36,131 nt of DNA. It comes from a virus. The position numbers and the translations under genes were made by a program. Location of the stretch: IMG/VR virus record IMGVR_UViG_3300030060_003471, positions 1 through 36,131 of that record; one strand, given 5' to 3'. Under the pieces are notes generated by a model, which worked only from the letters and a program-made list of their open reading frames with translations, was not told the origin of the DNA and searched no databases. Shown here one piece after another: positions 1-30,147 of the stretch (its first letter is position 1; the number at the start of each line of letters is the position of its first letter).

Positions 1-1049
1 CTAAAAAGGCTATGGATGTCACAGTCAAGTGGGATGGAGCACCAGCGGTGTTCACTGGCATCAACCCCGAGAACGGAAAGTTCTTCGTCGCAACCAAATC
101 ACTTTTCAACAAGACACCAAAGATCAACTATACCGATGCCGACATTGACGCTAACCACAAAGGTGGTTTGGCAGAAAAACTAAAGGTTGCATTACAGGAA
201 CTTCCAAAACTTGGAATTAAGGGCGTGTTACAAGGCGACATGCTTTTCACCAACGATGTATCAACGGACGTTATCGATGGCGAGTCCTACTATGTCTTTA
301 CCCCCAACACAATCACCTACGCAGTGCCTGTCAACTCGAAGTTGGGAAAGACAATTAACTCAGCAGGACTAGGGATTGTCTTCCACACCACATACACCGG
401 TGACACCATCGCCGATCTTGCGGCACAATTTGGTGCAGATGTCTCTGGTCTCAAAAAGACGAAGGGTGTCTGGTTTCAAGATGCTTCGTACAGGGATCTC
501 TCTGGCAAGGCTACGTTCACGGCGAGCGATGATGAAGAAGTTCGTCGCTACGTCAAAGGAACTGAAAGAATCGTAAAAGCCAATCGCAAACTTTTAAACG
601 ACATTGCAAAAAGTCCGATGAAAGATATTATCAAGATTTATCTGAACGCCAACGTTCGGGCTGGGGTTGACCGTGGAGATGTTAAGGGTCTGGCATCATT
701 GATGCGGGGAAGGTTTGCAACAAAGATTTCTTCCCTAAAAACTGAGAAGGCTCAACTGCGGGTGAAGGAAGAGGAGAAAGAAATGCTCACTTTCTTGAAA
801 AAGATCAGCCGAGGTCTTGATCAAATCTTCACCGCACACAACTATCTGGCTAAAGCAAAGATGATTGTGCTTAGAAAACTACAGGCACTAAATACTATGC
901 CGTCATTTATTAAAACGAGTGATGGATACAGAGTTACCGATCCCGAGGGATTTGTGGCAATTGATAGCACGGGGAAAGCAGTGAAACTTGTTGATCGTAT
1001 GGAGTTCTCACGGGCTAACTTTACAGTCGATAAAGACTGGGACAAATAG
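1..1049 (+). CDS. Conserved T4-like phage protein with KxDG motif (5' partial)
   Basis: The frame is open to the left edge of the window (codons for K-K-A precede the first ATG at 12), so the true N-terminus lies outside. I recognise the family as a conserved protein of marine T4-like phages (I believe DUF6267); its function is unknown. Visible features are VKWDGAPAVF near the start and GVLQGDMLF about 65 residues later. These resemble motif I (KxDG, with the adenylated lysine) and a downstream acidic strand of covalent nucleotidyltransferases such as RNA or DNA ligases. The C-terminal half is helical and lysine-rich. Relatives I remember begin with an MKTFK-type sequence shared by other proteins in this window. 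Coding is certain; the ligase-like fold is inference. Confidence 0.85.
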   Translation, partial: KKAMDVTVKWDGAPAVFTGINPENGKFFVATKSLFNKTPKINYTDADIDANHKGGLAEKLKVALQELPKLGIKGVLQGDMLFTNDVSTDVIDGESYYVFTPNTITYAVPVNSKLGKTINSAGLGIVFHTTYTGDTIADLAAQFGADVSGLKKTKGVWFQDASYRDLSGKATFTASDDEEVRRYVKGTERIVKANRKLLNDIAKSPMKDIIKIYLNANVRAGVDRGDVKGLASLMRGRFATKISSLKTEKAQLRVKEEEKEMLTFLKKISRGLDQIFTAHNYLAKAKMIVLRKLQALNTMPSFIKTSDGYRVTDPEGFVAIDSTGKAVKLVDRMEFSRANFTVDKDWDK

Positions 1050-1391: not shown

Positions 1392-1449
1392 TTGTTCGTA
1401 CCCGAAGTGGGGGGTGTTCTTTACACACAGCGTAGGAGGTGATCAACAA

Positions 1450-3546
1450 ATGAAACCGAATACTATCGGCGTGGATCGTCATGAACTTAGTGAAGAACGC
1501 TCTGCAAGCAAGAAGGCGGTTCTTACATTTGGGCGTTTTAACCCGCCCACTTCGGGACACGAACTATTGGTGTCTAAGGTTGTCGGAGAAGCGAAGAAGC
1601 GGAAAGCCGATAACTTCATATTCGCCAGCCATTCTCAAGACAAGAAGAAGAATCCACTCGACTCAAAAACCAAGAACAAATACATGAAGGCTTTCTTCAA
1701 GAAAGCCACAATTATGTATAATCCTGCTGTTCGCACAATCTTCGAGGCTATCGGATATTTAGCGGATGAAGGATACAAAGACATTACTGTCGTTGTTGGT
1801 GGAGACAGAGTAGACGAGTTCGAAAGAACTATCAGACCATACGTCAATCACCCAGATCCAGATAAGTCTTTTGACCTCGACTCGTTCGATGTCGTGAGTG
1901 CGGGGCAGCGTGACCCCGATGCTAAAGACATCACGGGTATGTCTGCATCAAAGATGCGTGCAGCCGCCGCTGACGGCAACTTCAAAGATTTTAAACTAGG
2001 TGTACCCACCTCAGTATCCGACACATTAGCCCGTAAACTTTTTGACGATGTTAGAAAGGGCATGGGTGTTCGTGGTGGTGATATCGTAGAAGAGGTCGCT
2101 CGACTACCAAAGCGTAGGGTTAGAATTGTTGTTTTCACAAAAGACGGCAGCGAGGGTACAGCAAAAAGAATTGTAGAAGAATGTGGGAAGAGTGGAAATC
2201 AAGTCTTTATTGCAGAGGTTCCCTCCGCCCGAGTCATTAAACAAGATAATGGCGACTTCGTTATTCGCAACAAAGATGGTTCAGAATTCATCGCCAATCG
2301 TCTGAATACAGTAATCGTTGTTCGAGTTGTTGCGGGGGGAAGAACCCTTGATAATGTCTCACAACTACAAGCAGCCGGGTTCTTTGTGGTAAACTCAATC
2401 GAGGCAATTGAGTCATGTAACGATAAATTTAGAACGTCTGTATTACTCAACGAGGCAGGATTGCCGACTCCCAAAACAAGCATTATCACCGATCCTGACT
2501 TGGCACTTGCTGCCCACAAGGAAGTCGGCGGTCAGTTCCCCGTGGTTATGAAAACAGTCTCGGGTGCTGGTGGTCGTGGTGTCTTTATCATTGAAAGTGA
2601 TATGTCCTTGAAGTCAACTGTCTCTGCTTTCTTCGAGAGCGATGCACAGACCGAACTTTTGATTCAAGAATTCATTCCAATCAATGGAGACATCCGAGTC
2701 CTAGTCCTGAATGGCGAGGTAGTTGGTGCGATGCACCGCCAGAAGGTCAAGAAGGATTTCAGAAGCAATGCCTCTCTGGGTGCTAATGTAAAAGAGGCAG
2801 AGGTGTCTGATGAAATCAAAGACCTTGCAATGAACGCCGCTAAGGCTATGGGTTGCTACTACTGTGGTGTAGATATCGCAATCAGAAAAAGAAACAGAAA
2901 ACCATTCATCCTTGAAGTTAACACATCACCCGGATCTGAGAACATTGAAAAGGCTACGGGTCAGAATGTGATTGGCAAACTAGTGAACGTAATCACTGAA
3001 AAGGAAAATTGGATCTACCCACCAACAACCGTTGGAAGGCGAGAGGTCATTGACATTAATGGTATCGGGAAGGTTGTCGCTAAGTTTGATACAGGCAACA
3101 CCGCACCAAACACGCTACATGCAGACACATTCACTATTGCTAATGGTATTGTGACTTGGAACCACAGCGGAAAAACCTTCACCAATAAAGTTGTGCGGAC
3201 CCTTAACATCGAGCAGGGTGGAATCGCCTCACACAGAGAGGACAGACCTGTAATCGAGTTAGACATGGAGTTCATGGGTGTCAAGTATCCTAAGCAACAT
3301 TTTACACTAGATGATAGATCTGATAAATCAACCCCCGTTCTCGTTGGCGTTCCTTTCATGAAGCAATTCCATATTGTCGTGGATTCGAGCAAAACTTATA
3401 TCAAAACTAAGCGTCTTGATGAATATGCTGGTGGAAACTTGGTTGGAACCGATACTCTTACTAAAAAGCGTAAGAAGATGACCCCCGGACAGGTAAATGA
3501 AATCGCAGATACATACTTCAAAGGAGTTTTACTATGTCAGGATTAG
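1450..3546 (+). CDS. Fusion: nucleotidyltransferase + RimK-like ATP-grasp ligase + retropepsin-like protease
   Basis: This is a 698-aa protein. The start at 1450 is chosen because TAGGAGGTGATC lies just upstream; the frame is open further 5' without such a signal. Residues 20-205 form a nucleotidyltransferase domain, with GRFNPPTSGH (28-37) as the HxGH-type ATP loop and ITGMSASKMR (161-170) as the ISxxxxR-type motif. Residues 220-520 are an ATP-grasp ligase of RimK type, with FPVVMKTVSGAGGRGVF near 363-379 and the metal-binding FILEVNTSPG (486-495). Residues 528-655 match the RimB/ATP-dependent 'zinc protease' family, which has a retropepsin fold: AKFDTGN (544-550), then PVLVGVPFMKQF before a VDSS turn. 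RimK ligases add glutamate to protein C-termini, and RimB partners act on that tail. The substrate here is unknown. All key motifs look intact. Confidence 0.85.
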   Translation: MKPNTIGVDRHELSEERSASKKAVLTFGRFNPPTSGHELLVSKVVGEAKKRKADNFIFASHSQDKKKNPLDSKTKNKYMKAFFKKATIMYNPAVRTIFEAIGYLADEGYKDITVVVGGDRVDEFERTIRPYVNHPDPDKSFDLDSFDVVSAGQRDPDAKDITGMSASKMRAAAADGNFKDFKLGVPTSVSDTLARKLFDDVRKGMGVRGGDIVEEVARLPKRRVRIVVFTKDGSEGTAKRIVEECGKSGNQVFIAEVPSARVIKQDNGDFVIRNKDGSEFIANRLNTVIVVRVVAGGRTLDNVSQLQAAGFFVVNSIEAIESCNDKFRTSVLLNEAGLPTPKTSIITDPDLALAAHKEVGGQFPVVMKTVSGAGGRGVFIIESDMSLKSTVSAFFESDAQTELLIQEFIPINGDIRVLVLNGEVVGAMHRQKVKKDFRSNASLGANVKEAEVSDEIKDLAMNAAKAMGCYYCGVDIAIRKRNRKPFILEVNTSPGSENIEKATGQNVIGKLVNVITEKENWIYPPTTVGRREVIDINGIGKVVAKFDTGNTAPNTLHADTFTIANGIVTWNHSGKTFTNKVVRTLNIEQGGIASHREDRPVIELDMEFMGVKYPKQHFTLDDRSDKSTPVLVGVPFMKQFHIVVDSSKTYIKTKRLDEYAGGNLVGTDTLTKKRKKMTPGQVNEIADTYFKGVLLCQD

Positions 3547-3845
3547 GTCACGGACCATTTAACGGAAACGACAACAGCATTAAAAATGTTGCGGACGTTG
3601 CTAGACAGATTATGTCTAGTGGTAGCCCCCAAGTGGATATGCACTCCAACGTAACACCAGAACACATCGCTGCTGCGGCTGATGATGTGCGACAAAATGC
3701 AACCACACTTGAGGACAGAAACAATATCATCACCAAACACATGAGAGAAATTGGTGATGAAAACACAACCACGGGTAATGTTGCAGCATTCTCAAATGAA
3801 GTGCTTAGACAGGCAAACACCCGCAGACCACCACAGGAGCAATGA
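3534..3845 (+). CDS. Uncharacterised phage protein, 103 aa
   Basis: The ATG at 3534 lies inside the end of the fusion gene (13-base overlap), with AAAGGAG 7 bases upstream, so the two are translationally coupled. The product is hydrophilic and rich in Asn, Asp and Thr. It has a predicted helical middle (PEHIAAAADDVRQNATTLED) and no membrane segment or cysteine. No family is recognised. Being coupled to the fusion gene makes a partner or substrate role for that enzyme worth considering, but nothing in the sequence demonstrates it. Confidence 0.7.
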   Translation: MSGLGHGPFNGNDNSIKNVADVARQIMSSGSPQVDMHSNVTPEHIAAAADDVRQNATTLEDRNNIITKHMREIGDENTTTGNVAAFSNEVLRQANTRRPPQEQ

Positions 3846-4383: not shown

Positions 4384-4770
4384 ATGAACTTTATGAGGCT
4401 GGACGATAGCAATATCGTCACCTATGCGATGAATAACTATGTGAATCCCTCATGCACTGACATTAAAGAGTTTGAGGAAGATTTTAACAAGTTTAAATAT
4501 ATCAAGAGACTATTCAATCGTTATGAATCAGCAGGTGTGCTTCGTGAGAGACTAATACTCAATCACATGATCACCCTTTACAATGTGTTTGGAAGAACAC
4601 CTGCTACTAGGATGCTCTTTAATCGGTGTGCGGAAAAACACTACATCATGCTCAAGACATTTCTTGTCTTTCTAAATTACTGTCCCGAAAAAATGTTTGA
4701 CGGGATCGATATTGAGAGTATACCGTGTGATCCATTTATAGTAAAAGCACTGAGGAACATCGATGCCTAA
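4384..4770 (+). CDS. Conserved T4-like phage protein of unknown function, 128 aa
   Basis: The product is a mostly helical, charged protein with the pattern EFEEDFNKFKYIKRLF, RLILNHMITLYNVFG and LKTFLVFLNYCPE. I recognise this type as widespread in marine T4-like phages, where it has no assigned function. It has no signal peptide or clear membrane span. The start at 4384 follows the upstream stop by 2 bases; a second ATG lies three codons in, and neither has a strong ribosome site. It ends overlapping the next gene by 8 bases, consistent with one transcription unit. Confidence 0.8.
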   Translation: MNFMRLDDSNIVTYAMNNYVNPSCTDIKEFEEDFNKFKYIKRLFNRYESAGVLRERLILNHMITLYNVFGRTPATRMLFNRCAEKHYIMLKTFLVFLNYCPEKMFDGIDIESIPCDPFIVKALRNIDA

Positions 4771-7967: not shown

Positions 7968-9569
7968 TCAGCCCTCACAACCCCAGTTTCCAAGAATGGT
8001 AGTCAGGTCAAGGAAACCAACCACACCATCGGCATTTGCATCACCCACACAAGTTCCACAATCGCTATCGTCAGTTCCTTCCAAGAAACCAAACTCATCA
8101 GCAGCGGACCAACCAGCCAACCAATTTTCGCCGGGAGCAAAACCACCACGATAGGTCACGGGTGAGTAGAAACCATTTGCAGGTGCGGGAGCAGATGTCG
8201 TGATGATGGCAGAGTCAATCGGTGTCGGGTCAATCGACGCAACAGCACTCACGGACTTGCCACCGACAACAACACTCGGCGAACGAACCAGTGAGCGAAT
8301 TGGAAGTTCTGCGGTTTCAACATTTGTCGCACGCATTGACGCAGGCACGATGTCGTAGTATGGATCGTCCGTGATATCACCAAAACCAGAGATGATGTTG
8401 TTTGACAATTCTGCAAGTTTACCATCGGTTTGTGCTTGATACAGGTTGTCCATCATAGACGAAGCACCAGCGTTCACATAATCAATGTAGGCAATCCCGT
8501 CCGTCCCTACTGCGTCAGTCTCAAAGCGTTCAGCGAGCGTCAGAGTCCCGTTATGACCATATCCCGAAGAACCATCTCCGTCATCCCCGTCAACACGAAC
8601 GAGTTTGTCGCCCCTACCGATAAAGATATTGTTTCGGAATTGAACCGATGCGTTGTCTCTCCAAGTGGTCGTGCCGTCACCGGATTCGGTATTCGCAATC
8701 GTAGTAAAGTTATAGATTGCAGCACGGGTTCTTGGTTGTGCGTCAGAGTTTTCTGCACCATCAAACTCAAAGATATTGTCTCCGAGTCCAGAGCCTTGTG
8801 AAGCGTTTCGTGAGTAACCTTGTACAATCAGACCAAACTGTGATCGACCTCTCCAGCCTTGATCAACGTCAAACGAGTCATCACCGACATTCCAAATGGA
8901 AACATACTTGAGGTCAACTGTGCCGCCCCAAATCTCGATGCCGTCATCGACATTGTTCATTACTTCAATGTGGTGGATTTTCGTATTCCGACCAATAGCA
9001 CCAAGAGACAGACCATTGAGTTCGTTAGAAAGTCCGACAACTCTACCCGCATAGCGAATAGACAGATAAGATAAATTACCTGCATCATAATCGTCATTAC
9101 CACCACCATAATTATTTAGAGATGGGTCGCCTGCCGTTTCAACAAGTCCTTCCATGTTTGCTTGATTAGACGCACTCGGAGTCGGGGTGTTGTTCGGGAA
9201 TCCACCGGAGTTAGTCGTTCCGTCAAACCCGATGAAGGCATCACCACAAAGTGTAAGATTACCCCACTCGTTTGCAGACGCTCTCCAAGTTCCATCGTCA
9301 AGGGTAGAGGTCATCACGACTGGTGCGTGTCGCTCTCCGTTCACAAAGATTTGTCCTCCATTTGTTACACATAACCCACCCGCACCATTCGCAGATGCTT
9401 CGGAAGCAATCACTGTCCCTGCTTCAATTGTCAAAGTTGCTCCCGGCAAGACATAGATTTGTTTCGTCAAGTTGTAAACATTGTCAGCCGTCCAAGTTGT
9501 TGATGTTGCGATGTCTTCGGTGACATCAATGTTTGCTGAAAGTAAGATAACGCTCAAAAGTAAGTGCAT
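7968..9569 (-). CDS. Secreted beta-helix protein with dockerin-like EF-hand tail
   Basis: The 533-aa protein begins with a short hydrophobic signal-like segment (MHLLLSVILLSANI). The body shows repeated short beta turns rich in Gly, Asn and Asp (PGATLTIEAGTVI, KIHHIEVMNNVDDGIEIWGG, VQFRNNIFIGRGD), as in right-handed parallel beta-helix surface proteins. The last 30 residues contain two Cys residues and GDANADGVVGFLDL, an EF-hand calcium loop as in dockerin type I repeats, followed by LTTILGNWG. That kind of tail is common in secreted proteins of Planctomycetota. AGGGA lies 6 bases before the start, and a terminator separates it from the porin upstream, so it needs its own promoter. It looks acquired from a bacterium; a virion depolymerase is the alternative. 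Confidence 0.65.
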   Translation of the reverse strand: MHLLLSVILLSANIDVTEDIATSTTWTADNVYNLTKQIYVLPGATLTIEAGTVIASEASANGAGGLCVTNGGQIFVNGERHAPVVMTSTLDDGTWRASANEWGNLTLCGDAFIGFDGTTNSGGFPNNTPTPSASNQANMEGLVETAGDPSLNNYGGGNDDYDAGNLSYLSIRYAGRVVGLSNELNGLSLGAIGRNTKIHHIEVMNNVDDGIEIWGGTVDLKYVSIWNVGDDSFDVDQGWRGRSQFGLIVQGYSRNASQGSGLGDNIFEFDGAENSDAQPRTRAAIYNFTTIANTESGDGTTTWRDNASVQFRNNIFIGRGDKLVRVDGDDGDGSSGYGHNGTLTLAERFETDAVGTDGIAYIDYVNAGASSMMDNLYQAQTDGKLAELSNNIISGFGDITDDPYYDIVPASMRATNVETAELPIRSLVRSPSVVVGGKSVSAVASIDPTPIDSAIITTSAPAPANGFYSPVTYRGGFAPGENWLAGWSAADEFGFLEGTDDSDCGTCVGDANADGVVGFLDLTTILGNWGCEG

Positions 9570-17563: not shown

Positions 17564-20062
17564 TCAAAACAATGTTGCCTTTTGCTCATAGTCCCACCCA
17601 ACCTTTTCTAGAATATTCTTCAGTGGCTCAAGGAATGAGACTGAAAACTGTTTATCATAATCAGCATACGTTTCTAGTTCAAACTCTTTGGGTGATGATC
17701 CGGGGAAAGATATCACCGTGTCTCGATACGGATTGGGGGCTTGAAGGTAAAGAAACTTAACTTTATCACCTTCGTTGATCTTGTAGTATTTGTTGTCTAG
17801 TTGCCTCTTCTTTAAGAAGTGGTTGTAAATCAACGCACCCTTTACGGCAATCGGAGTGGATTTACGATATATCAGTGCCTCATCGACGTATGTGTTAATA
17901 TTGTTACAACCACGAGGGAAGGCAATCTCATCTGGACCGTAACCACGGAACTCCTCCTTGAAGTTAGCCACAAAGTCGATAATTTGATCTTCAGTTCCGG
18001 TCAACACCAACTTGATCGCGTCCTTCAACTTCTGACGCACAACCATCGGAGTTGAAGAGCGTGTGGTTTCAATGCCCATGATCTTCATCTTGGGTTCATC
18101 GTATTGTACGCCCTCCGAGTTATGCACGTTGAGCATATATCGCTTCTTGGCTGTCCAGACTCCAACATCGGCAATGACTTCTCGCTCCATCACCATCTTG
18201 TTGGAGTACGCATTCATCTTTTGTGCAAGTTCGTCGTAACACTTATTGATGAATGGTTCAATGACCTCCCGGCAAGATTTATCAAGAAAGGATACGATCT
18301 CCGCCTTTGTCTTTCCCCGAGCCGCAGCCCGAACCAAGTTCCCAAGCCGAAGGTAAACGGAATCAGTATCAGAAGCCACCACATAATCATAATCTCCTGT
18401 GTTCAAAGTCTTGTTCAGAAATTTGTTCAACTCATCGGCGATGTATTGAATCGACAACTGACCCGAGGTCGTAATCGCCTCTGCAATGTCAGTGTTGAAG
18501 TAACGAAAATACTGGTTACCCATCGCACCATATGCTGAGTTTAGTTGAATCTTTCGCACCAGTTGGAAGTTATGATACTTGGCGATCTCAAAGTCCAAAC
18601 TCTCATCGTCTGGATTCTGTTGCTTTTTCTTCTGGGCTTCGATCATCAACTTCTTGTAGTGCTTGCGTTCTGCATAAAACTTTTCCATGAGTTCCGGCAT
18701 GAAGCCAAGTCGATCTTTGCGGAAACAGACACCATTGGATGCGACCGAAAAGTTTTTCTTTGCCAAAGCATTCAAATGCTCAGAACACATTTCTGACTTT
18801 TCAAGAATACCGTTTGGTGTGATGCACGGATCTTTGGGAAACCCTCCCGGCATTACCTTAGTATCGGGAGAAATGTTATATTGCATGATGAGGTGTGGAT
18901 ACAGACTGTTGAGGTCAAAGGACACAACCCAGTCGTGCCGACCAGTGATCGGCTCCTTGACATATGCACCGATAATCTGTCCGTCTTTCTTGCCACCATT
19001 CTTCTTGCGTGGAATCACTATGTTTTTGGCACGAAGATGATGATAGATGATCTGATCCCACGTTCTGACCTGTGAAAACACATCGCCAAGATTCACCTTT
19101 GCCGTATACGCAAGTGCGAGGGCGAGTTCCATGAGTCCAAGTTTCTTCTCCAACTTCTGCACCAACTTAACATCTTGGTGATTATATTCAACAAACAGTT
19201 GAAAGTCATTTGTATAGAAATCTTTGAAGTGGTCATACTCATACTCGACTTTCTTTTCGCCGAGTTCGACCGATGTGATGTGATCCAACTTGTATGACTC
19301 TTGGTTCACATAGGTGAACTTTTGATACAGGTCATAGTAGTCGAGGATTGTCACGCCCATAAACTCAAAGGCGATTCTATCTCCACTTTGTGTTTGGATA
19401 TTCCTCTGCTTTACAATGCCCCACGGAGAAAGTCGTTTTGCCTGCTTTTCAATCACACGCTCCATGCGTGCATAAAGATAAGGCATATCGAAAAACTTGA
19501 CATTCCAACCAGTTACGATGTCAGGGTCTTCTTCTTCCCAGACGCTCACGAATTTCATGAGCAGATCTTTCTCATTCGTGAACGTAAACAGATTGATATG
19601 TTCTGGTAAGGAACAGTCGCCTAGTGCAAACACATATTCTCGCTCGTCAATTATGAGAGTGATAACATTGACTCTCTCAACTGGATTGAGAACTTGTGGG
19701 AAACCGTTCTCGGAAGTAGTTTCAATGTCAAGGTATGCCACCTTGATTTGATTCTTATCATATGGAACATCATCGGGAAACTTGTCACCGATGAACTGAT
19801 AGATGTAATCAGTGTTTCCGTGAATCTCAAACCCCGTCACACTTTCGTGGCGGAGAATAAAGTCCCTACAATCAGACATGGATCCGGGTTGAAATGTTTC
19901 AACACTTCGACCATCCATTGTGTGGTACTTCGAAGCCTTGTCCGTGGAGACAAAGAGAGTGGGGCGATAGTCGATCCTACCCTCGACTCTCTTTCCGTTC
20001 TCATAACCTCTGTAGAGAACGTTGTCTCCACGGACACTGACACTTGTGTAGAATCGACTCAT
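17564..20062 (-). CDS. 43: DNA polymerase, family B, T4 gp43-like
   Basis: The 832-aa protein is a complete replicative polymerase with proofreading. Exonuclease motifs are LDIETT (D112, E114), NVKFFD (to D192) and YNHQDV (D297). Polymerase motif A is SFDLNSLYPHLIMQYNISP (D383), motif B is KIQLNSAYGAMGN, and motif C is ASDTDSVYL. The C-terminal end QKATLF resembles the short clamp-binding tail of T4 gp43. It is slightly shorter than T4 gp43 (898 aa). A strong sigma70-like promoter lies immediately upstream, with its -10 box only 6 bases from the ATG. In T4 this gene directly follows regA; here about 7.6 kb of glycan and fibre genes separate them. Confidence 0.95.
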   Translation of the reverse strand: MSRFYTSVSVRGDNVLYRGYENGKRVEGRIDYRPTLFVSTDKASKYHTMDGRSVETFQPGSMSDCRDFILRHESVTGFEIHGNTDYIYQFIGDKFPDDVPYDKNQIKVAYLDIETTSENGFPQVLNPVERVNVITLIIDEREYVFALGDCSLPEHINLFTFTNEKDLLMKFVSVWEEEDPDIVTGWNVKFFDMPYLYARMERVIEKQAKRLSPWGIVKQRNIQTQSGDRIAFEFMGVTILDYYDLYQKFTYVNQESYKLDHITSVELGEKKVEYEYDHFKDFYTNDFQLFVEYNHQDVKLVQKLEKKLGLMELALALAYTAKVNLGDVFSQVRTWDQIIYHHLRAKNIVIPRKKNGGKKDGQIIGAYVKEPITGRHDWVVSFDLNSLYPHLIMQYNISPDTKVMPGGFPKDPCITPNGILEKSEMCSEHLNALAKKNFSVASNGVCFRKDRLGFMPELMEKFYAERKHYKKLMIEAQKKKQQNPDDESLDFEIAKYHNFQLVRKIQLNSAYGAMGNQYFRYFNTDIAEAITTSGQLSIQYIADELNKFLNKTLNTGDYDYVVASDTDSVYLRLGNLVRAAARGKTKAEIVSFLDKSCREVIEPFINKCYDELAQKMNAYSNKMVMEREVIADVGVWTAKKRYMLNVHNSEGVQYDEPKMKIMGIETTRSSTPMVVRQKLKDAIKLVLTGTEDQIIDFVANFKEEFRGYGPDEIAFPRGCNNINTYVDEALIYRKSTPIAVKGALIYNHFLKKRQLDNKYYKINEGDKVKFLYLQAPNPYRDTVISFPGSSPKEFELETYADYDKQFSVSFLEPLKNILEKVGWDYEQKATLF

Positions 20063-28535: not shown

Positions 28536-29206
28536 TTCCAGTCATCCCTTGCAATAAGAACGTCATTACGAGCAACAAAATATTTTCGAAGCAGGCTTGG
28601 TTTTGTTTCCCCTGTGATGTCGTCTCGAATATTGACAATACTATCTTTTAGTGTCAGACCCGACTCATCGTATGCCCGGACTTCCAAGTCCACATATTTG
28701 AATTTGTATTTTGGATTGATTGACATGATCAAATTATTCAATGCCTCTTCTGTAAGAATTTGACCATTATCCTTGTATAATCCTTTCCTGACAAATCTGA
28801 GATCATCAACCATGATAACATGATCATTTCTGGATGACGAATTCTTGATTGTACGAATCTCATTCAGCAGGGGATTGAAGTTATCGTCTCCACCAGTTTT
28901 CCCCTTACTACAGTGAGCATCCAGCCAAAATACGATACGCTTCTTAGTCATGCCAATCATGACCGATAGAAGATTTGCAGAGTCTCCGTGATATAATTTC
29001 ACTTTGCCAGACGAAACTTCCTTACTAAACCGCTCACGGCAGTGATTGTAATACTCATCTGCTATTTCAACACTACGAACCTGAGAAAATCCTAGTTCAA
29101 GTGCTGTCTCTATTTGGTTGCCCATGTAACTTCCAGTCTCAACAAAAATCATTTCGCTTTTTGGAAGACCTTTTGTGGCATTCAAAATCCCGTCGCCAGA
29201 TATCAT
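28532..29206 (-). CDS. SAM-methyltransferase-like protein inserted between 44 and 62
   Basis: The 224-aa protein reads as a class I SAM-binding fold: MIFVETGSYMGNQIETALELG (glycine loop), VRSVEIADEYYNHCRERF (acidic residue after strand 2), VKLYHGDSANLL, and IVFWLDAHCSKG. No DNA-methylase catalytic motif such as (D/N)PPY is seen. The sequence resembles methyltransferase-like proteins that modify sugars or small molecules. It starts and ends with ATGA overlaps to genes 44 and 62, so it is translated with the clamp loader, an odd setting for a glycan enzyme. The substrate is unknown. Confidence 0.7.
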   Translation of the reverse strand: MISGDGILNATKGLPKSEMIFVETGSYMGNQIETALELGFSQVRSVEIADEYYNHCRERFSKEVSSGKVKLYHGDSANLLSVMIGMTKKRIVFWLDAHCSKGKTGGDDNFNPLLNEIRTIKNSSSRNDHVIMVDDLRFVRKGLYKDNGQILTEEALNNLIMSINPKYKFKYVDLEVRAYDESGLTLKDSIVNIRDDITGETKPSLLRKYFVARNDVLIARDDWK

Positions 29207-30147
29207 TTAAACTCTGCTTCCATCATGATCTCGGTCAGGCACGCCATCATGTTGATTTCTGAATCAGCAGCGAACGCAGCCTTGTATTGATAGTTGGCAA
29301 GAATCAGAATTACCGCTGGCACGGACTGTGCTTTGAGATTTTCACTGAGGGAATCATACACTTTACGGTACACCTCGGTCTCTTCGTTTCCGCTGTTGTC
29401 AACCACCCATCCACGCAACTTGGAAAATTCCTTGTTCTTCAGAATGGTCATCAGTGAGTGGACACCAACGTCACCAATCTCAGACAGAATGCCCACATCG
29501 ATCTCGCCGGACGCAGAGTATCGCTGACACTCGTTCAGGATACGCCGCCAGTCAGGAGCATGACGCATGATCATTTTAGCAATCACTCGATCATCATAGT
29601 GGATGCTCTCCTCGCCAAGAATCATCTGAAGCCTGTTCAAGAACTTGGAACCCAACTTCATCTGTTCATTCTTGCTAAAGTTAAAATCAACACATGTGCA
29701 TCGAGAGTGCAATGGCTCGATGATTCGATTCTTGAAGTTACATGTCAAAACAAACCGACAATTTATCGCAAACTCTTCAATGAACCCCCGAAGGGCGGGC
29801 TGAAAACTGTTTGCGTTCGCATAGTCAAATTCGTCAAGAATGACAACCTTCTGTTCTCCCGACAAGGACTGTGCAGATGCAAAGTCACGAATACGAGTTC
29901 GGAGTGTGTCGATGTTTCCATCCTCCGAGCAGTTGATCTTCAACCACTCCGCACCCATCTCTTCACACATGGCGATGGCGGCTGTAGTCTTACCACAACC
30001 GGGACCACCGGAAAAGAGAAGGTTCTGCATCTCTCCAGAATCCACAATGGCTTGAAGGGTTGTCTTGAGAGTATCAGGCAAAATACACTCACTAATTCTA
30101 GATGGTCGATACTTTTCGACCCAGATGTGTTGCTTCGTTGTCAACAT
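29203..30147 (-). CDS. 44: Clamp-loader large subunit, T4 gp44-like AAA+ ATPase
   Basis: The 314-aa protein (T4 gp44 is 319 aa) is an AAA+ clamp-loader ATPase. It has WVEKYRPSRISECILP at the N-terminus, Walker A GGPGCGKTT (47-55), Walker B VVILDEFDYA (101-110), and the arginine-finger motif SRC (148-150). With gp62 it opens the gp45 ring and places it on primed DNA. GAGG lies 4 bases before the start. A 93-aa ORF lies between it and gene 45. Confidence 0.95.
   Translation of the reverse strand: MLTTKQHIWVEKYRPSRISECILPDTLKTTLQAIVDSGEMQNLLFSGGPGCGKTTAAIAMCEEMGAEWLKINCSEDGNIDTLRTRIRDFASAQSLSGEQKVVILDEFDYANANSFQPALRGFIEEFAINCRFVLTCNFKNRIIEPLHSRCTCVDFNFSKNEQMKLGSKFLNRLQMILGEESIHYDDRVIAKMIMRHAPDWRRILNECQRYSASGEIDVGILSEIGDVGVHSLMTILKNKEFSKLRGWVVDNSGNEETEVYRKVYDSLSENLKAQSVPAVILILANYQYKAAFAADSEINMMACLTEIMMEAEFK

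Follow-up and report, generated by a model that had tools for sequence, protein, structure and literature searches.

A T4-like phage protein combines nucleotidyltransferase, RimK-type ligase and RimB-type retropepsin domains and may be packaged in the virion

Among the means by which bacteria adjust their ribosomes and other processes is reversible polyglutamylation, a mechanism characterised only recently. In the RimBK hybrid of Desulfotalea psychrophila (DP2392), both enzyme families reside in one chain, as they do in the phage protein described here, which is encoded in the window, the whole 36,131-nt stretch of viral DNA that was analysed. The RimB part of the hybrid cleaves poly-glutamate on RpsF and RimB stimulates RimK, while no glutamylation by RimBK was seen on the S6 that was assayed (PMC11957791). 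The joining of RimK and RimB is not new in itself, since the bacterial hybrid is known and has been assayed (PMC11957791). However, the hybrid is bacterial, carries RimB at its N-terminus and has no nucleotidyltransferase (NTase), whereas in the window protein RimK precedes RimB and an NTase domain is present. Among solved structures, RloA of Pseudomonas is nearest to the window protease, and both have the catalytic aspartate and poly-glutamate-binding arginine residues (PMC12239564). RloA is a periplasmic protein distinct from the ATP-grasp RloC, in an operon with a membrane protein, whereas the window protease is fused to its ligase. Like the window protein, ATP-grasp–retropepsin proteins of the Moranbacteria type place the ligase first, with a C-terminal DTG segment, although their retropepsin part is recognised by motif only and they belong to a different ATP-grasp clade. 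Their operons, in a Moranbacteria MAG (L091:18-4843) and a related bacterium (L092:681-5791), encode, besides this ATP-grasp protein, a membrane protein and several more ligases of the RimK type.

Components of the window protein also have phage counterparts. RimK genes are annotated in cyanophages (PMC6722890), where the ‘ribosomal protein S6 glutaminyl transferase’ (phrog_2599) is a phage-borne RimK-type ligase, as in the window; the one inspected, from S-RIM12 (296 aa), lacks RimB and falls outside the phage RimK-RimB group in our tree. Virion-associated NMNAT-like proteins are on record (PMC10665884). The cyanophage NMNAT/cytidylyltransferase of the gp184 type (S-SCSM1 ORF91, S-SZBM1_140) belongs to the window's NTase family but has neither RimK nor RimB, and S-SZBM1 shares the upstream DUF6267 gene with the window locus. 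In T4, IPI–IPIII and Alt have a short N-terminal targeting segment, are cleaved at L/I-x-E and are ejected with the DNA, a fate that the window protein may share. Alt also modifies proteins, but it is an ADP-ribosyltransferase, and the T4 internal proteins are unrelated to the window enzymes. In the open-access literature searched, we found no description of a phage family with RimK followed by RimB, of its recurrent fusion to an NTase or of a link to packaging.

The 698-aa open frame is a single polypeptide of NTase, RimK and RimB domains (Table 1). This architecture is genuine: the same order is present in at least 57 distinct contigs of uncultured phages and so is not a false merge. The original prediction had described one phage polypeptide with three domains in this order, and the profile and structure matches agree with it; the sequencing join that it had named as a possible source of error is contradicted by the recurrence of the order in phages. 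The motifs FILEVNTSPG and AKFDTGN, which it had singled out, are both present.

Table 1. Positions of the features discussed, numbered from the first letter of the window.
Feature	Position	Strand	Remarks
DUF6267 protein	12..1049	+	PF19782 E 1e-103; directly upstream neighbour
Shine-Dalgarno AGGAGGT	1434..1440	+	strong site, 9 nt upstream of ATG, read from sequence
NTase-RimK-RimB gene, 698 aa	1450..3546	+	open frame; architecture recurs in at least 57 distinct contigs
N-terminal extension MKPNTIGVDRHELSE/ERSA	1450..1506	+	L-x-E site of prohead-protease type, residues 13-15; precedes NTase domain
NTase domain (PPAT/NadD/NMNAT fold), residues 20-208	1507..2073	+	motifs GRFNPPTSGH, GMSASKMR
RimK-type ATP-grasp alpha-L-glutamate ligase domain, residues 222-519	2113..3006	+	K326, K368, R416, R438, D475, E489, N491
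RimB/RloA-type retropepsin domain, about residues 526-654	3025..3411	+	PF05618, 9g59 matches
RimB active site D547-T548-G549	3088-3096	+	
RimB R599	3244-3246	+	
RimB R623	3316-3318	+	
C-terminal tail with motif GTDTLTKKRKKMTPGQVNEIADTYFK	3439..3522	+	
103-aa protein gene	3534..3845	+	overlaps end of main gene; lineage-restricted neighbour
DUF7207 protein	4384..4770	+	PF23837 E 2e-38; downstream neighbour
533-aa protein	7968-9569	-	dockerin-like repeat CVGDANADGVVGFLDLTTILGNWG at end
gp43-type polymerase	17564-20062	-	
Clamp loader	29203-30147	-	

The RimK domain (profile matches at residues 228–515) scores 203 bits against TIGR00768 (cut-off 143), matches PF08443 at E 2e-44 and aligns to E. 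coli RimK (4iwx) at E 2e-32, with the DFRSN and EVN-SPG motifs common to both. Residues K326, K368, R416, R438, D475, E489 and N491 are invariant in 55 fused relatives and in at least 110 of 111 unfused ones. By alignment, the last five correspond to R189, R211, D248, E260 and N262 of E. coli and Pseudomonas RimK. Of these, R189, D248, E260 and N262 serve in ATP/Mg and glutamate binding, and the P. aeruginosa RimK structure shows the glutamate contacted by R189 and N262 (PMC10092738). Glutamate ligase activity is strongly predicted. The S6-specific model NF007764 scores 122 bits, below its equivalog cut-off of 331, and the ribosome, which had been offered as an example target, gains no support from it. 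The MptN and CofF models match the domain at 165 and 106 bits, both also below their equivalog cut-offs.

Residues 525–665 had been expected to adopt a RimB/retropepsin fold, and this fold was found. The window domain scores 38 bits against PF05618 (cut-off 27), a family labelled ‘zinc protease’ that is the RimB retropepsin family, and its profile matches 9g59 at E 5e-16. The AlphaFold2 model has a pLDDT of 88, with an alignment drawn from the window and fetched loci only. Its best structural match is P. aeruginosa RloA2 (9g59; Z 16.8, rmsd 1.7 Å over 121 residues, 29% identity), and HIV-type retropepsins match at Z about 9. D547, G549 and N550 are invariant, with at most one gap, across the 55 fused and 111 unfused relatives, and R599 and R623 are kept in every relative that has a residue at those positions. 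Alignment to 9g58/9g59 together with residue spacing equates D547, R599 and R623 with RloA D48, R114 and R137, and R114A and R137A are the RloA mutants with the greatest drop in poly-glutamate cleavage (PMC12239564). Poly-glutamate protease activity is strongly predicted. Conservation of the ligase and protease residues, poly-glutamate-binding arginines included, is consistent with the earlier proposal that one chain would add and remove a peptide tag. Values of dN/dS lie mostly between 0.02 and 0.15 per domain, with one noisy value of 0.32 from a near-identical pair.

The NTase domain has an adenylyltransferase fold. Over residues 13–208 it matches phrog_3041 at E 8e-54 (hmmscan), within the phage families phrog_3041/phrog_395, and its AlphaFold2 model (pLDDT 90, from the same restricted alignment) resembles PPAT at Z 14.5 and NadD at about 13, with a Foldseek E of 1e-6 for NadD. 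PPAT and NadD/NMNAT are not separated by these matches. The window protein scores 13.8 bits against PF01467, below the cut-off of 21 that many relatives exceed. The signature residues T34, G36, H37, S165, K168 and R170 are present, giving (H/T)xGH and a C-terminal S-x-x-K-x-R. The HxGH motif originally assigned is correct as to GRFNPPTSGH but not as to its first histidine, which is a threonine here and in 48 of the 54 relatives that have no gap there. The NTase gene also carries alternative C-terminal modules, namely SET domain, HNH_3 and DUF5824 (L104, L108, L137, L118, L148, L166), and so resembles a platform on which enzymes can be exchanged.

The three-domain form occupies one conserved locus, DUF6267-[NTase-RimK-RimB]-...-DUF7207. 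Among the matches listed, the upstream neighbour is DUF6267 in 54 of the 57 three-domain loci and in 65 of the 79 with the NTase only, and DUF7207 lies downstream in 43 of the 57. The 103-aa gene, previously put forward as a partner or substrate, is a weak candidate for a universal one, being recognised in 14 of these 57 loci among the matches listed. As a glutamylation substrate its product is not supported, given its sparse occurrence and a C-terminus that is not glutamate (...PPQEQ in the window, ...HLNK in L005). The window phage is T4-like, with the gp43-type polymerase and clamp loader accompanied by a DnaB-like helicase, UvsX, primase, RNR and thymidylate synthase. No further RimK-RimB was found in the 36-kb window besides the NTase gene.

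Relatives were gathered from about 250 distinct loci in GenBank phages, IMG/VR and MAG contigs. The window protein as sole query recovered none and alignment queries recovered hundreds, and the first negative scan was therefore a limit of the method. There are at least 63 NTase-RimK-RimB ORFs (at least 57 without known duplicates), at least 112 RimK-RimB and at least 79 NTase-only; one NTase-RimK ORF occurs among the matches listed, and most RimK-RimB ORFs among them lack the NTase. The three-domain protein is common in marine T4-like phages. Unfused RimK-RimB lies mostly at the regA/gp43 junction of a T4-like cluster, gp45-gp44-gp62-regA-[RimK-RimB]-gp43; in a few contigs it is immediately 3' of DUF7207, and in Yersinia phages it adjoins RNR. 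Each of the 13 records with a match held a single RimK-RimB copy and no second. A genome scan gave four good matches, which appear to be phage contigs sorted into MAG bins, as one of them (L090) bears T4-like gp45, gp44 and gp43. Two variants stand apart. In a contig binned as Saprospiraceae the fusion order is reversed, with the NTase as a gene of its own that comes directly after RimK-RimB and overlaps it (L087:375-2772), and the Methylophilales phage Melnitz has, at the position between regA and gp43, a RimK that lacks RimB (L098:82-1131).

In a tree of the RimK part, the phage RimK-RimB proteins form one group (97/81), which includes one very long bacterial branch and lies apart from the RimK of cyanophages and bacteria. 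The NTase-fused forms do not make up a single clade: 9–10 changes are counted, at least five forced by well-supported branches, and fusion or fission must have happened independently several times. That the same partners were joined more than once points to a functional link, although shared delivery alone could account for it.

The original prediction overlooked three things: a packaging signature at the N-terminus, a conserved neighbourhood of head genes and how large the family is. In T4 heads, the first ten residues target proteins to the head and the prohead protease cleaves after L/I-x-E (PMC9026906); IPII and IPIII begin MKTYQEFIAE/A (slash after L/I-x-E). NTase relatives start MKTYQRFMTE, MKTYKSFMTE or MKTFNNFISE, and RimK-RimB proteins MEAFKSFITE or KFKDYITE. 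A pattern like that of the T4 capsid-targeting sequence (CTS), [FY]xx[FY][ILMV]xE, occurs in the first 40 residues of 23/52 NTase (44%), 12/24 RimK-RimB (50%) and 33/63 DUF6267 proteins (52%), compared with 0/92 proteins of eight other families and less than 1% of shuffled N-termini of the same three groups. Among 26 non-redundant three-domain proteins, 21 have L/I-x-E within the N-terminal extension; shuffles gave 18%, with 0/400 equally high, and none of 11 bacterial and cyanophage RimK controls has it. The strict CTS pattern was found in 0/27 three-domain forms and a relaxed one in 6/27. The window protein itself has LSE at residues 13–15 but lacks the aromatics that mark a canonical CTS. 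CTS-like starts (MKTFKEYIKE, MKSFKQFLTE) also occur in other ORFs of L102-L178 and other T4-like loci, 60 of 817 non-redundant; these phages may package a large set of ejected proteins.

Published virion mass spectrometry detected S-SCSM1 ORF91 and S-SZBM1_140, although the S-SCSM1 authors allow for carry-over. Both are members of the NTase family (E 7e-68 and 7e-59) and have CTS-like starts, MKSFLQFLKE/A and MRFRQFIIE/A. A ‘ribosomal protein modification protein’ of phage YerA41, g112, is middle-expressed and particle-associated, in particles that also contained polymerases and helicases. It was identified as a RimK-RimB homologue by its description, by the label ‘structural protein’ where YerA41 matched and by gene order relative to RNR. 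The YerA41/GN1 homologue has an N-terminus that is not CTS-like, and its phage does not belong to the type with a T4-like replication cluster, unlike the others. Abundant cytosolic enzymes can turn up in particle proteomics. Packaging is moderately supported, and for the window member we infer it.

We regard it as an even call that the three-domain protein is a packaged, probably ejected enzyme of T4-like phages that both extends and trims poly-alpha-glutamate tails on a protein. Its RimK domain, using ATP, would ligate L-glutamate to the C-terminus of an acceptor protein, probably processively. A dimer of the RimB retropepsin would hold poly-alpha-glutamate via R599 and R623 and cleave it with D547, and tail length would be set by a single chain with both ligase and protease. 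The NTase could be the source of an allied activation step, or an ancestral packaged enzyme onto which a tail-editing module was grafted. More tentatively, the enzyme, ejected at infection, might reversibly poly-glutamate-tag host ribosomes or another host protein, with a head-packaged NTase as its platform. This would be a protein-modifying takeover system against major marine bacteria, with a logic like that of T4 Alt and a different chemistry, and the cyanophage virion ‘cytidylyltransferase/NMNAT’, so far unexplained, becomes testable as a delivery platform for swappable enzyme modules.

An unpackaged enzyme, made during infection and polyglutamylating S6 on host ribosomes in the cytoplasm to favour translation of phage mRNA, is unlikely. 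In most Pelagibacter-type loci unfused RimK-RimB is indeed flanked by the translational repressor regA and gp43, and a phage bS21 gene lies a few genes from RimK-RimB (L002:2548-2757, and as cluster 12 in 12 other regA-type loci); bS21 neighbours bS6 on the 30S platform (PMC9976891). Expression of the YerA41 homologue peaks mid-infection. However, bS21 occurs in only 1 of 15 longer records, one with the unfused form, the regA/bS21 association may reflect lineage alone, and the N-terminal signature and the virion-detected NTase family are left unaccounted for. Phage-carried bS21 or S6 was likewise rejected as a hint to the substrate, with bS21 in that one record of 15 and no S6 above cut-off.

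There is a small chance that tail editing targets a phage protein in head assembly, the poly-glutamate tag serving scaffold or packaging control. The locus is part of a conserved cluster, several of whose products in S-SCSM1 are annotated as virion proteins, and cyanophage relatives adjoin head genes. Against this, no conserved neighbour among those inspected has a C-terminal glutamate run, and RimK-RimB is also found far from head genes, at the regA-gp43 site and beside RNR in Yersinia phages. It is also improbable that the protein is a cofactor or small-molecule enzyme, in which the NTase adenylylates a compound of the NAD, CoA or flavin type and RimK glutamylates it as CofF and MptN do. Such ligases exist within the RimK family, the MptN and CofF models match, the NTase has the PPAT/NadD fold and NTase-RimK fusion recurs; but those matches fall below the equivalog cut-offs, RimB retains its residues for alpha-linked poly-glutamate and RimK-RimB mostly lacks the NTase. 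The chance that the gene is decayed or is an artefact of sequencing or assembly, in favour of which nothing was found, is negligible given the at least 57 distinct contigs, invariant active sites and purifying selection.

Of 55 complete three-domain (or NTase-RimK) ORFs, 24 carry the C-terminal tail motif. The short GT(D)...(D/M)TPG(Q/E) motif is found in 56 unrelated phage ORFs, including ORFs of L107, L112, L136 and L147, and in no shuffled sequences. The tail as proof that RimK-RimB was inserted into an ancestral NTase gene is weakened, as GT...TPG(Q/E) is common to other phage proteins. The repeat at the end of the 533-aa window protein is one that we take to be of the type found in Planctomycetes proteins, a possible hint to the host.
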